Of a stretch of 64,000 nt of DNA, positions 20,061-24,207 are shown piece after piece. Below the pieces are notes generated by a model. It was not told the origin of the DNA. It worked only from the letters and a program-made list of their open reading frames with translations, and did no database searches. Location: positions 62,001 to 126,000 of the forward strand of contig CAIVQH010000060.1 of the NCBI GenBank assembly GCA_903907995.1. The letters are read 5' to 3'. Within the stretch, counting starts at the first letter, position 1. Every line of letters starts with the position of its first letter. A program made the translations under genes and the position numbers. Source of the stretch: an uncultured Verrucomicrobiota bacterium (GTDB taxonomy: Bacteria; Verrucomicrobiota; Verrucomicrobiia; Limisphaerales; UBA9464).

Positions 20061-21611
20061 GTGCAAATCGCCGGTCTCGCGGCCGCCTCTGGCCGCCGGT
20101 CCCACTGGAGTTTTCACCGCGGCTGGCGGTGCCTCCGCCTCGCCCTGATCACGCTGCTCAGCCTGCCATTGCTGACGGCCCGCGCCGATCTTTCCGAACT
20201 CCTCCAGCGAGGAGTCCTGCGTTGGGGCAATGACGCCGAGGGAGGCGCCCCCTACATTTACCACGACCCGGATCACGCTGACCGCCTCATCGGTTTCGAG
20301 GTGGAATTTGCGGAGGCATTGGCCGGTCGGCTGGGTGTGAAGTCCGAGTTCGTGCAGAACAACTGGGATATGCTCGTGCCCGCGCTCGGCGACGGCACGA
20401 AGTTCGATGTGATCATCGCCGGCTTGGAACGCTCGCCGGAGAATCTGGGCAAGCTCGCCATGAGCCGCCCCTATTTCATCTTCGGCCAGCAACTCGTGGT
20501 GCGCGCCGACGTGACGAATGTTACCTCGCTCGATGATTTGCGGGGCAGGGCGGTGGGGGTGCTTTCCGCCTCGGGCTCGCATCATCTGGTGGAACGCCAC
20601 GGCGGAATCGAGGCGAAGGTTTATCAGGACAACGTGAATTACTTCCGCGATCTGGAGGTGGGCCGTCTCGATGCTGTGCTGACCGACTCCCCCATTGCCC
20701 AGGTCAACCTCGTGGAAAACACGAAGCTCAAGCTGGCGGGGAAGCCCTTCGCGCCCGGTTATTACGCGGTCGGCGTGCGGCGCGAAGATCCGTTGGTGTT
20801 GGCAAAAATCGATGAAGCCATCGCCGCCATGATTGCGGATGGCACGCTGGAGCGCATTTACACGAAGTACGGCCTTTGGTCCGCCGATCAGGGTGCATTG
20901 CGCGACTGGAAGGCGGACCGCGCGGACGCCGCCGCCGCCGCGCGGACGCAGCACTCGGCCTTGCGCGATTGGCGGACGTACATGCCTCTATTGCTCCGCG
21001 CCTCGGTGACGACGATCTGGATCACCTGCGCGGGCATGGTGCTGGCGGTGGTCTGGGGGCTGGCCCTGGCGCTGTTCCGCATGTATGGGCCCGCACCCGT
21101 GCGCTGGTTGTCGGTCGCCTACATCGAGGTCTTTCGCGGCACGCCGCTGCTGCTGCAGATCTACTTCATCTATTTCGGCCTTGCGCAGCAGCTCGGGCTG
21201 AAGCTGTCCGCCGGCGTGGCTGCCGTGGTTTCGCTCGGGCTGAATTACGCGGCGACCGAGGCGGAGAATTATCGGGCCGGTCTGCAGGCCGTCCCCAAAG
21301 GCCAGACCGAGGCCGCGCTCGCCTTGGGCATGACGCGCGCGCTGACGGTTCGCCGGGTGATCCTGCCGCAGGCGCTGCGCATCAGCCTGCCGAGCGTGAC
21401 CAACGACTTCATCGCGATGTTCAAGGATTCGTCCATCGTGTCCGTCATCGCGCTGGTCGAGCTGACGAAGGAATACCAGATCCGCGCGATCGATTCGGGC
21501 GACTACATCGGCATGGGTCTGATGACCGCCGCCATCTATTTTGTGATGAGCTATCTCGCGTCGCTCGGCGCCCGTGCTATCGAAAGGAGGATGAACCGTG
21601 ATCACCGTTGA
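20061..21611 (+). CDS. Amino-acid ABC transporter: binding protein fused to permease
   Basis: This 516-residue protein joins two parts normally made separately. After a signal-like hydrophobic segment (about 26-41), a type-3 solute-binding domain (about 45-280) has RWGNDAEGGAPYIY, GFEVEFAEALAGRL and DVIIAGLERSPE. A linker leads to a permease domain of the HisM/GlnP family (about 305-510) with several membrane helices, FRGTPLLLQIYFIYFGLAQQ and the EAA loop with ALALGMT. The start is GTG at 20061, preceding the signal sequence. The 3' end overlaps the ATPase gene by 14 bases. Such fusions are known for polar amino-acid importers; the exact substrate cannot be told from sequence. Confidence 0.93.
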   Translation: MQIAGLAAASGRRSHWSFHRGWRCLRLALITLLSLPLLTARADLSELLQRGVLRWGNDAEGGAPYIYHDPDHADRLIGFEVEFAEALAGRLGVKSEFVQNNWDMLVPALGDGTKFDVIIAGLERSPENLGKLAMSRPYFIFGQQLVVRADVTNVTSLDDLRGRAVGVLSASGSHHLVERHGGIEAKVYQDNVNYFRDLEVGRLDAVLTDSPIAQVNLVENTKLKLAGKPFAPGYYAVGVRREDPLVLAKIDEAIAAMIADGTLERIYTKYGLWSADQGALRDWKADRADAAAAARTQHSALRDWRTYMPLLLRASVTTIWITCAGMVLAVVWGLALALFRMYGPAPVRWLSVAYIEVFRGTPLLLQIYFIYFGLAQQLGLKLSAGVAAVVSLGLNYAATEAENYRAGLQAVPKGQTEAALALGMTRALTVRRVILPQALRISLPSVTNDFIAMFKDSSIVSVIALVELTKEYQIRAIDSGDYIGMGLMTAAIYFVMSYLASLGARAIERRMNRDHR

Positions 21612-22344
21612 AGCCCTGACCAAGAGCTTTGGTTCCACCCGCGTGCTGGATGGTCTGGATCACCGCCAGGCCGCTGGCGAAACCGTGGCGCTGATCGGTC
21701 CGAGCGGCTGTGGTAAGAGCACGTTCCTGCGCTGCCTCAATCAGCTCGAGACGCACGACACCGGGCGCATCACGATCGGCGATCTGACGCTGGAAGGTGG
21801 CCGCGCCGCCACGACGGAACAGCAACGCCAGCTCCGGCTGCGGGCGGGCATGGTATTCCAGCAGTTTCACCTTTTCCCGCACCGCACGGCGCTGGAGAAC
21901 GTGATGGAGGGGCCGCTGCACATCCTGCGTGAACCCCGCGCCGAGGTGGAGGCACGCGCCCGTGAACTGCTTGCCAAGGTGGACCTTTCCGCCCGGGCCG
22001 ATCATCTGCCCGGGCAGCTCTCGGGCGGTCAGCAGCAGCGTGTCGCGATTGCGCGAGCGCTGGCCATGCGTCCTCAGCTGTTGCTGCTGGATGAGCCGAC
22101 TAGCGCGCTCGACCCGGAGCTGCGCGATGAGGTTCGAAGCGTGCTGCGGCAACTGGCGGAGGAGGGGATGACCATGCTCGTCGTCACGCACGATATGCAG
22201 CTCGCGCGCGAGGTCGCCGACCAGGTGGTGTTCCTGCATCAGGGGCGCGTCGCGGAGTCGGGCACGGCCGAGGCGATTTTCCAAGCGCCGCAACATGAGC
22301 GGACGCGGGATTTTCTGCGAAGAGTGCGGAGCGCGGGTCTGTGA
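21598..22344 (+). CDS. Amino-acid ABC transporter ATP-binding protein (GlnQ type)
   Basis: This 248-residue ATPase has Walker A GPSGCGKST (about 34-42), MVFQQFHLFPHRTALENV (Q-loop wording typical of GlnQ/HisP), signature LSGGQQQRVAIARAL and Walker B LLLLDEPTSALDPEL. The GTG start lies inside the end of the permease gene (14-base overlap). The first strand reads LDGLDHRQAAGE, slightly unusual at a position that is normally VxLxV. The last codons (Arg-Ser-Ala-Gly-Leu-stop) are provided by a REP-like hairpin, exactly mirrored in the convergent Nudix gene. Confidence 0.93.
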   Translation: MITVEALTKSFGSTRVLDGLDHRQAAGETVALIGPSGCGKSTFLRCLNQLETHDTGRITIGDLTLEGGRAATTEQQRQLRLRAGMVFQQFHLFPHRTALENVMEGPLHILREPRAEVEARARELLAKVDLSARADHLPGQLSGGQQQRVAIARALAMRPQLLLLDEPTSALDPELRDEVRSVLRQLAEEGMTMLVVTHDMQLAREVADQVVFLHQGRVAESGTAEAIFQAPQHERTRDFLRRVRSAGL

Positions 22345-22364
22345 CCCGCAGCAACCTCCGAACT
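22327..22364 (+). repeat. REP-like palindromic element, copy 1
   Basis: A 7-bp perfect hairpin (GCGGGTC, loop TGT, GACCCGC at 22333-22349) is preceded by CGGAGC and followed by GCAGCAACCTCCGAACT. The same arrangement is found inverted at 22391-22435. The loop and right stem contain the TGA stop of the glnQ-type gene. Relative to copy 2, one base pair of the stem is swapped (G-C for C-G) on both sides, so pairing is kept. Confidence 0.8.
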
Positions 22365-22390
22365 GCCGGTCGCTTCCCTTTCATTAGTCA

Positions 22391-22435
22391 GCTTCGAACT
22401 GGAGGAGCTGCTGCGGCTCACAGAGCCGCGCTCCG
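22391..22435 (-). repeat. REP-like palindromic element, copy 2 (inverted)
   Basis: On the minus strand this reads CGGAGC, then a perfect hairpin (GCGGCTC, loop TGT, GAGCCGC at 22413-22429), then GCAGCAGCTCCTCCAGTTCGAA. It matches copy 1 in inverted orientation, with only small insertions in the trailing part. The hairpin contains the TGA stop of the Nudix gene. The two copies together could act as a bidirectional terminator between convergent genes. Confidence 0.8.
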
Positions 22436-22867
22436 TCGAAACTCCGGCGCGCCCTGCAACGACGCCAGCAATCCGGCGTCCGCAGCAGGAAACGAATAAC
22501 GCCCCAGCTCCTCGGCCGTGACCCAGGCCAGTGCGGCACAGTCGAGGGGCTGGGGTTCGCCGGAGATCAGCGAGCACACGAAGAAGCGCAGGTGCACGGT
22601 CTTCTCCGGATAGGCGTGGGTGACCTCATTGAAGAGGCGTTCCACACCGACGTCGATGGCCAGTTCTTCGCGGAGTTCGCGGCGCAGGCAGTCCGCCCAT
22701 AACTCGCCCGGCTCGCGCTTGCCGCCCGGGAATTCCCAGAGTCCGGCCAGATGCGAGCCTGCCTTGCGCTGGGTGATGAGCAGCTTGCCGTCGCGAAACA
22801 AGAGGCCTGCCGCCACGTCGATGACCGCGCAGGGAGTTTCCTGCGGTTTGCGGGGTAGGTCGCTCAC
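22418..22867 (-). CDS. Nudix hydrolase, MutT (8-oxo-dGTP diphosphatase) type
   Basis: This protein of about 149 residues has the Nudix box GGKREPGELWADCLRRELREEL, preceded by LITQRKAGSHLAGLWEFPGG as in MutT and the A/G-specific glycosylase C-domain. It likely removes oxidised nucleotides or a similar substrate. GTG codons at 22867 and 22873 are both possible starts; longer readings overlap the ugd gene and look non-coding. The C-terminus (Arg-Ser-Ala-Ala-Leu-stop) comes from the REP-like element. The gene lies downstream of ugd on the same strand, about 41 bases after it. Confidence 0.88.
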   Translation of the reverse strand: MSDLPRKPQETPCAVIDVAAGLLFRDGKLLITQRKAGSHLAGLWEFPGGKREPGELWADCLRRELREELAIDVGVERLFNEVTHAYPEKTVHLRFFVCSLISGEPQPLDCAALAWVTAEELGRYSFPAADAGLLASLQGAPEFRRSAAL

Positions 22868-22908
22868 GATCACAGACAGGGGTGGCAGGCCGTGACTTCG
22901 GACGCAAT

Positions 22909-24207
22909 TCAGCGTCCGATGCTCTTGTAGATGAAACCAAGCTTCTCCATCTCCGCCGGGTCGAACAGGTTCCGGCCGTCGAAGATGATGGGCGTGCGCA
23001 TGGACTTCCGGGCACGCGCGAGATCCAGCTTGGTGAATTGCGGCCATTCGGTGGCGATGGCCAGTGCGTCGACCCCGTCTGTCACGGCGTCCATGTCGGC
23101 GACGTATTCCACGGTGTCCGACGCGGGCAGCAGCGCCTTCGCCTTCTCCATCGCCTCCGGATCGTACACCCGCAGCTTGGCGCCCTCTTTGAGGAGGCGC
23201 TGGCAGAGGTCGATGGCCGGCGAGGTGCGGACGTCGTCGGTGTTCTGCTTGAAGGCAAGTCCCAGCACGCCGATGCGCTTGTCGCGGAGCACCCAGAGGT
23301 TGTCCTGGATCTTCTTCACGAAGCGCGCCATCTGGTCGGCATTGATGCGCTGGACCTCCTTGAGCAATTGGAAATCGTAGCCCAGCTCCTCGGAGATGTG
23401 GATGAAGGCCGAGAGATCTTTTGGGAAGCAGGAGCCGCCGAATCCAAGGCTCGCCTGCAGGAAGCGCGTGCCGATGCGGTTGTCCAGGCCCATGCCGCGG
23501 GTGACTTCCTGCACGTTGGCGCCGGCGGCCTCGCAGATGACGGAGAGCGCGTTGGCGTAAGAGATTTTGAGCGCGAGGAAGGAATTCGCGGCGTGCTTGA
23601 TCAGCTCGGCCGAATTGGTGTCGGTGACGATGATCGGGGCGTTGAAAGGGCTGTAAATCTCCTTCATCGCCGCCACCGGACGCTGGCTGCTGACGCCGAT
23701 GACGACGCGGTCCGGTTTCATCAGGTCCTCGACCGCGAAGCCTTCGCGCAGGAACTCGGGATTACTGACGACGTCAAAGTCCACGCTGGTCTTGCGGTAG
23801 CGCTTGATGGTTTCTGTGACCTTCTCGCCGGTCTTCACCGGCACCGTGCTCTTGTCCACGATGATGCGGTAGGCGGTGAGATGGCCGGCGACTTCGCGGG
23901 CGACCGACTCGATGTAGCTCATGTCCACCGAGCCGTCGGGCTGCGGCGGCGTGGGCACCGCGATGAAGATGACCTCGGAATTGGCCACGCCCTCGCCGGT
24001 GGATTGCGTGAAGAGCAGCCGGCCGGCCGCCACGTTGCGGCGCACCACCTCGTCCAGTCCCGGCTCATAGATGGGGATGCCGCCGGCCTGAAGCAGGGCC
24101 ACCTTTTTGGGGTCGGCATCGACGCAGGTGACGGTGTGGCCAACTTCGGCGAAGCAGGCGCCCGTGACGAGACCAACGTATCCGGTTCCAATGATCGTAA
24201 TTTTCAT
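22909..24207 (-). CDS. ugd: UDP-glucose 6-dehydrogenase
   Basis: The enzyme oxidises UDP-glucose to UDP-glucuronate with two NAD molecules, supplying acidic sugars for surface polysaccharides. The 432 residues include the NAD-binding loop GTGYVGLVTG (7-16), VAVPTPP-like IAVPTPPQPDG, SNPEFLREG, the catalytic Cys260 in GFGGSCFPKD, and the C-terminal UDP-binding FKQNTDDVRTSPA. Length and motif order are those of the TuaD/Ugd family. A terminator hairpin lies just upstream, so it is probably transcribed on its own or with the Nudix gene. Confidence 0.96.
   Translation of the reverse strand: MKITIIGTGYVGLVTGACFAEVGHTVTCVDADPKKVALLQAGGIPIYEPGLDEVVRRNVAAGRLLFTQSTGEGVANSEVIFIAVPTPPQPDGSVDMSYIESVAREVAGHLTAYRIIVDKSTVPVKTGEKVTETIKRYRKTSVDFDVVSNPEFLREGFAVEDLMKPDRVVIGVSSQRPVAAMKEIYSPFNAPIIVTDTNSAELIKHAANSFLALKISYANALSVICEAAGANVQEVTRGMGLDNRIGTRFLQASLGFGGSCFPKDLSAFIHISEELGYDFQLLKEVQRINADQMARFVKKIQDNLWVLRDKRIGVLGLAFKQNTDDVRTSPAIDLCQRLLKEGAKLRVYDPEAMEKAKALLPASDTVEYVADMDAVTDGVDALAIATEWPQFTKLDLARARKSMRTPIIFDGRNLFDPAEMEKLGFIYKSIGR

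Follow-up and report, generated by a model that had tools for sequence, protein, structure and literature searches.

Two convergent genes meet in the analysed stretch of DNA (the window, 64,000 nucleotides in length), and an element made of two inverted hairpins lies across their facing ends (Table 1). In the plus-strand hairpin the arms occupy positions 22333–22339 and 22343–22349 around a TGT loop at 22340–22342, with CGGAGC at 22327–22332 in front. The minus-strand hairpin occupies 22413–22429, and its outer flank reaches 22435. The coordinates and the common architecture assigned to the two hairpins in the initial annotation proved exact when the window sequence was read again. The consensus of both ends is CGGAGC-[GCGG(G/C)TC-TGT-GA(C/G)CCGC]-AGCA, inverted around a variable stretch of about 53 bases. 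A single stem pair differs between the left and right hairpins, on both sides of the stem (G-C against C-G). Scanning the window against Rfam at gathering thresholds gave no match.

Each hairpin contains the stop codon of the gene that runs into it. The T of this TGA is the final base of the loop and its G and A open the 3′ arm, and the element encodes the C-termini ...RSAGL* of the ATPase and ...RSAAL* of the NUDIX protein. Translation of the open reading frames confirmed these C-termini and the annotated location of both stops inside the hairpins. Both genes end on hairpin TGAs because CGG AGC GCG GST CTG TGA is the sole phase with an immediate stop.

Table 1. Features of the window element and its two flanking genes
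Feature	Position	Strand	Remarks
ABC transporter ATP-binding protein, polar amino-acid type (TcyN/GlnQ-like)	21598..22344	+	below NCBIfam equivalog cut-offs; predicted GTG start
Whole REPIN	22327..22435	n/a	109 bp; inverted ends of about 28 nt, variable interior of about 53 nt
Left REP	22327..22356	+	CGGAGC, 7-bp stem GCGGGTC/GACCCGC, TGT loop, AGCAAC
ATPase stop TGA, in left hairpin	22342..22344	+	
Right REP (inverted)	22406..22435	-	CGGAGC, 7-bp stem GCGGCTC/GAGCCGC, TGT loop, AGCAGC
NUDIX stop TGA, in right hairpin	22418..22420	-	
NUDIX (MutT-like) hydrolase frame	22418..23047	-	true start probably further in

A family of dispersed hairpin pairs

The window's own draft genome (G000; 5,109,158 bases in 60 contigs, 95.67% complete) was searched for further copies. 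A strict pattern with one mismatch allowed gave 24 matches, and its reversed control gave none. A covariance model derived from 31 of the genome's own hairpins (cut-off E 0.001, 150 first-look candidates scored per genome) identified 33 hairpins. These form 16 inverted pairs, each with a spacer, and one single hairpin (C24:57132) whose partner is present in decayed form, giving about 17 elements on many contigs. REP-like paired elements, as proposed in the initial annotation, are thus dispersed and repeated in this genome. Since inverted pairs dominate among the copies, the pair rather than the single hairpin appears to be the spreading unit for this stem. A singlet of the same layout at L028 has another stem, GCGGGCA-TCC-TGCCCGC.

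With the outer C and G excluded, 14 of the 16 elements are 105–109 bp long (the window element 107 bp, or 109 bp with the outer bases), and the other two are 137 bp (L021) and 149 bp (L033). The ends are conserved and the interiors differ between elements. By eye, some interiors appear related in either orientation (the window element and L044; L042 and L044; L024, L026 and L040). Among 30 distinct sequences from this genome the tag reads CGGAGC in 19 and CGGACC in 4.

The compensatory swap noted between the two window hairpins is real and recurs across the family. At stem pair 5 the same 30 sequences have G-C in 15, C-G in 12, G-T in 2 and T-G in 1. In a set of 200 distinct hairpins, chosen by similarity and not by pairing and including related copies that are not independent, the bases at position 5 form a pair in 189, whereas shuffled sets average 94.9 and reach at most 115; for pair 4 the corresponding figures are 191, 161.1 and 170. 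The remaining five pairs are almost invariant in this set and show no excess over shuffles. In the 31-hairpin alignment the covariation score was 0.171 against 0.048 and was reached in none of 500 shuffles. Weaker measures on the same alignment were two pairs changed on both sides, reached by 31 of 500 shuffles, and three further pair types, reached by 230 of 500. The window stretch as a whole folds strongly (z -5.44). The interiors fold no better than shuffles in all 15 elements analysed (z -1.7 to 1.4), which traces the low energy of the stretch to its inverted ends.

The family also occurs beyond this genome. The strict pattern matched in 11 of 58 genomes and the covariance model in 11 of 39, both counts including G000 and the second including weak matches in G010 and G038. 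Within the genus the covariance model found 33 hairpins in G000, 14 in G005, 9 in G003 and none in five other genomes. Among the at least 80 named loci listed, three are labelled Proteobacteria or Formivibrio, and the others listed carry Verrucomicrobia, Limisphaerales, Verrucomicrobiales or Pedosphaera labels. Inverted pairs in 112 named loci measure 104–112 bp in 54 of 69 cases and 72 bp in 7. Taken together, these features identify the window element as a REPIN (REP doublet) of a Verrucomicrobia subdivision 3 family with a GGAG tag.

Two further arrangements were seen among the named loci. Back-to-back hairpins that share CTCCGGAG and point outwards, not inwards, were seen among the 60 singles listed out of 79; loci with this arrangement are L099, L101, L104, L105, L108, L111, L112, L124, L129, L138, L146 and L150, eleven of them from MAG casp150-mb.181 and one from UBA3939. 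In MAG Umea3_bin-0111 (L140, L163 and L088) family hairpins lie at or near contig ends, perhaps where the assembly breaks at repeats.

Gene ends and the sister-species locus

G003, a sister species of the same genus, has the same convergent gene pair, and its ATPase is 97% identical. Alignment of the two DNA sequences ends at 22329, two bases into the element, and restarts at 22475, 40 bases past its other end. The intervening gap in G003 contains a different inverted hairpin pair, and the window element is absent. Both proteins end differently: the ATPase with DFLRKVRG* (CGG GGC TGA) in G003 and DFLRRVRSAGL* in G000, the NUDIX protein with EFSRSTTD* and EFRRSAAL* respectively. In 15 other genomes ATPase homologues end 5–9 residues past the F of the FLR-like motif, and RSAGL occurs in none of them. 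Judged from these sequences, an insertion in the G000 lineage would be the simplest reading of the window locus. Loss of the element in G003 is a possible alternative, because the NUDIX neighbour was present in no other retrieved locus.

Fourteen further elements were traced to G003, and both flanks align in 11. L033 is common to the two species, L038 and L044 correspond to related hairpins with a long loop in the gap, and eight loci are without an element. With the window included, 9 of the 12 elements with both flanks aligned are therefore absent from G003, 1 is present and 2 correspond to related long-loop hairpins. For L022, L024 and L036 the alignment covers the left flank alone, and G003 has no copy there. 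Inspection by eye suggests other or diverged REP-type hairpins in four further G003 gaps (those of L031, L034, L038 and L044). The left flank of L033 (bases 1002–1050 of the query) contains another dispersed repeat of about 50 bp, which takes 26 of the 42 G003 matches listed. The earlier suggestion of insertion at gene ends is supported by the G003 pair, which lacks the window element and uses other stops.

Exact target sites could not be read from G003 or rebuilt, because the gaps have diverged. No target duplication was found at the exact edges of any of 15 elements, and the best matches near the edges are 2–5 bases long against a chance mean of 3.2. Absence of target duplication is expected of IS200/IS605-type chemistry.

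The gene context of 15 of the 17 elements (L049 and C46:78679 left out) was assigned by codon-usage scoring, without formal gene calls. Nine elements lie between convergent genes, four between genes in the same direction and two in unclear contexts; none is clearly divergent. The placement of these 15 elements is extragenic, typically at gene 3′ ends. Twenty-four gene ends face the 15 scored elements; 17 stop 9–43 bp short of the element, 4 stop 74–123 bp short, and 3 use the hairpin TGA, both at the window and one at L024.

The phase in which genes enter the hairpins was also counted, using mechanically defined frames that are not proven genes. At the 31 hairpin ends counted in G000 there are 9 incoming open frames with a minimum length of 150 codons. 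The TGA phase is used by 3 of them and the other two phases by 4 and 2; the window element contributes two of the three TGA-phase ends. At 43 ends from relatives' loci the TGA phase accounts for 2 of 8 frames (other phases 1 and 5), in a set that includes four G000 loci and in which the TGA-phase case L085 repeats L024. At 194 ends from named loci it accounts for 2 of 16 (other phases 7 and 7). A hairpin TGA acting as a real stop, at 3 of 31 ends in G000, is thus an exception. As the TGA phase shows no excess and is rarely used, the double TGA at the window looks like a coincidence of insertion phase. No terminator-like site (GC-rich hairpin followed by a T run) was found between 21900 and 22900, so the element does not resemble an intrinsic terminator. 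Together with the phase count, this leaves the idea of selection for a combined stop codon and terminator unsupported.

RAYT transposases beside the same stem

The initial annotation had proposed looking for a RAYT-type (Y1) transposase gene as a partner of the hairpins. Five matches to PF01797 are present in G000, and none has the window hairpin within 1.5 kb, even with 7 substitutions allowed. At 30 PF01797 loci in eight relatives' genomes no close hairpin copy was found beside the gene; the best near-matches were L212 with 5 substitutions and two others, weak, with 6. The matching RAYT subfamily surfaced only when loci were scanned for Y1 motifs. At L133 (JAQBVM010000194.1) a Y1 transposase lies between two identical 110-bp REPINs of the window's family, and its TAA stop abuts the CGGAGC of one of them. 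The protein contains NHVH and YIENNP and is a member of the Y1 HUH transposase family (PF01797, E 8.9e-10). It matches TnpArep of PDB 4er8 at E 0.0039 and scores 70.8 bits under NCBIfam REP_Tyr_transpos, below the curated cut-off of 80.

When the L133 protein was used as query, 87 of 293 genomes of the order contained a match at E 1e-30 or better. The stem GCGGNTC-NNN-GANCCGC occurs near all 8 RAYTs whose identity to the query is 72% or more and near none of the 22 at 68% identity or less; these 30 loci were examined out of a longer match list, consist of related sequences and include the query's own locus (L348), and the stem was sought within 500 bp or, at contig ends (three of the 8 and four of the 22), over the whole locus. 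The tag at the 8 stem-bearing loci is GGAGC in six and GGCGC or GGAAA in two, and three of the 8 RAYTs contain one in-frame stop. At L355 (68% RAYT identity) copies lie about 0.86 kb away. The same layout with another stem is present at at least 13 of the 22 lower-identity RAYTs (L362, L364–L369, L371–L373 and L375–L377). The stem thus changes with RAYT similarity, as would be expected of RAYTs that each recognise a REP of their own. A REP of the family also occurs singly and in frame inside the RAYT genes of L349, L351 and L353 (G222, G095 and G147), where it translates as CGSQSRAP or CGSQSRVP; insertion of a REP sequence in some proteins of one subclass is described in PMC6006769.

The expected partner is thus found in relatives, in the same genome as the REPINs and beside the same stem. 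Searches at E 1e-30 found no RAYT of the matching subfamily in G000 (a draft 95.67% complete) or in G005, which has 14 hairpins. A further search of G000 gave one weak match and a relative inside an SNF2 gene with other flanking hairpins. This RAYT-like domain (L055/L230, G000:C19:120968-121549, minus strand) lies in frame within a helicase gene with a 1438-aa frame, with GTAGGACGGG(C/T)GTCCCGCCCGTC hairpins on either side. L123, where hairpins lie near a RAYT, was rejected as a cognate locus; the RAYT there shares 83% identity with the L052 type, which in G000 is flanked by other repeats. Inspected by eye, other RAYT genes of G000 (L051–L054 and L241) have different palindromic repeats of their own around them, so this genome seems to contain several REP systems side by side.

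A second kind of in-frame Y1 domain was seen in the alanyl-tRNA synthetase gene (alaS). In 4 of 6 genomes, which were chosen because long frames gave Y1 matches, the sole alaS found includes, within a single open frame, a Y1 transposase domain near PF01411 position 263 or 375 (L223 in G003:C61, L227 in G055:C19, G039:C66 and G047:C417). Two cases were confirmed by Pfam and two are based on RAYT alignment. G043 may be a fifth, split over contigs, and alaS of G000 has no Y1 domain.

Origin of the element and known systems

We consider it highly probable that the window element is a GGAG-tagged REPIN, probably mobilised by a RAYT, and that it most likely arrived after the two species separated, replacing the last codons of both genes. 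This reading rests directly on the dispersed inverted pairs, the stem covariation, the sister locus without the element and the RAYTs of relatives beside the same stem. In the proposed mechanism the two inverted REP hairpins would together make up a short mobile element that is non-autonomous. The RAYT, a Y1 (HUH) transposase of the L133 subfamily, would recognise its GGAG-plus-hairpin ends, with GGAG as guide, and would probably move it as single-stranded DNA. The element most likely entered the short convergent gap after the split from G003, and insertion would have replaced the last codons on either side. The copies now in G000 would be orphans of such a RAYT. A host function is not needed to explain the element.

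The main alternative is a gene-end module kept by selection, supplying a stop codon and a bidirectional terminator or 3′ stabiliser to convergent genes. The predominance of convergent gaps (9 of 15), the strong fold of the window stretch and the two stops inside hairpins are in its favour, but such a fold is expected from two long inverted ends, the TGA phase is not in excess and terminator-like sites are lacking from 21900–22900. The element is also absent from most G003 gaps compared, and the 15 other ATPase homologues end without RSAGL. We therefore regard selection for such a module as very unlikely. Hardly any weight can be given to a classical MITE, the type of DNA transposon that has terminal inverted repeats and depends on a DDE transposase for its movement. 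Its short, multicopy, non-coding form and inverted ends of about 28 nt would fit, but the ends fold individually into hairpins that show compensatory changes, and in relatives such ends flank Y1 transposases on both sides. Exact-edge target duplications are absent, and near-edge matches are at chance level. Chance palindromes or a purely local duplication are effectively refuted by 33 copies on many contigs, by the copies in other genomes and by the empty reversed control.

Within the preferred reading of a RAYT-mobilised REPIN, a more speculative and rather doubtful extension is that convergent gaps serve as docking slots whose occupants can be exchanged. Between sister species one REPIN would be replaced there by a REPIN of another RAYT family, and each turnover could rewrite the flanking C-termini and stops. 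The different hairpin pair in the G003 window slot and the REP-type hairpins in four other G003 gaps suggested this idea.

In titles and the opening parts of abstracts, with most subscription journals outside the scope of the search, we found no published account of a GGAG REPIN family in Limisphaerales or Pedosphaera. The element is of a known kind, and what is new is the GGAG-tagged family in an order for which we found no description. For this largely uncultured verrucomicrobial order it adds a well-delimited REPIN family together with the matching RAYT subfamily. At the window locus nature provides a clean comparison, in which one of two sister species has the element in the gene pair, the other does not, and both protein ends are altered. 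The agreement between RAYT similarity and stem sequence makes hairpin recognition directly testable.

Bertels and Rainey (2011, PMC3116915) described REPINs as hairpin-forming REP doublets. The present family shares with those REPINs the inverted REPs, variable spacer, dispersed and mainly extragenic location and RAYT association, and its pair lengths of 72 and 104–112 bp are near the REP spacings reported for P. fluorescens SBW25 (71 and 110 bp), although measured slightly differently. It differs from them in its GGAG tag, stem, Verrucomicrobia subdivision 3 host, low copy number (about 17 elements found) and the lack of a matching RAYT among those found in G000. Di Nocera and colleagues (2013, PMC3733652) reported GTAG-tagged REPs in the PVC group, where O. 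terrae is highly enriched in them. These too are small tagged palindromes, many in inverted dimers, near gene 3′ ends and in convergent gaps, and the context in G000 agrees with published surveys in which REPs favour convergent and unidirectional gaps. Unlike them, the present family has the tag GGAG, which places it outside the GTAG superfamily, and its stop codon is a TGA that spans the loop and the 3′ arm instead of a TAG contained in the tag. A perfect stem with a 3-nt loop following a tetranucleotide is shared with TnpAREP/RAYT systems such as REPtron Sm, in which tetranucleotide and hairpin are reported to contribute unequally (PMC8266576). In contrast to those systems, one base (C) separates GGAG from the stem here, and the L133 RAYT falls short of the NCBIfam REP_Tyr_transpos cut-off. 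REPs are often very near or right after the rayt stop codon (PMC2817692), and the RAYT at L133 has the same arrangement.
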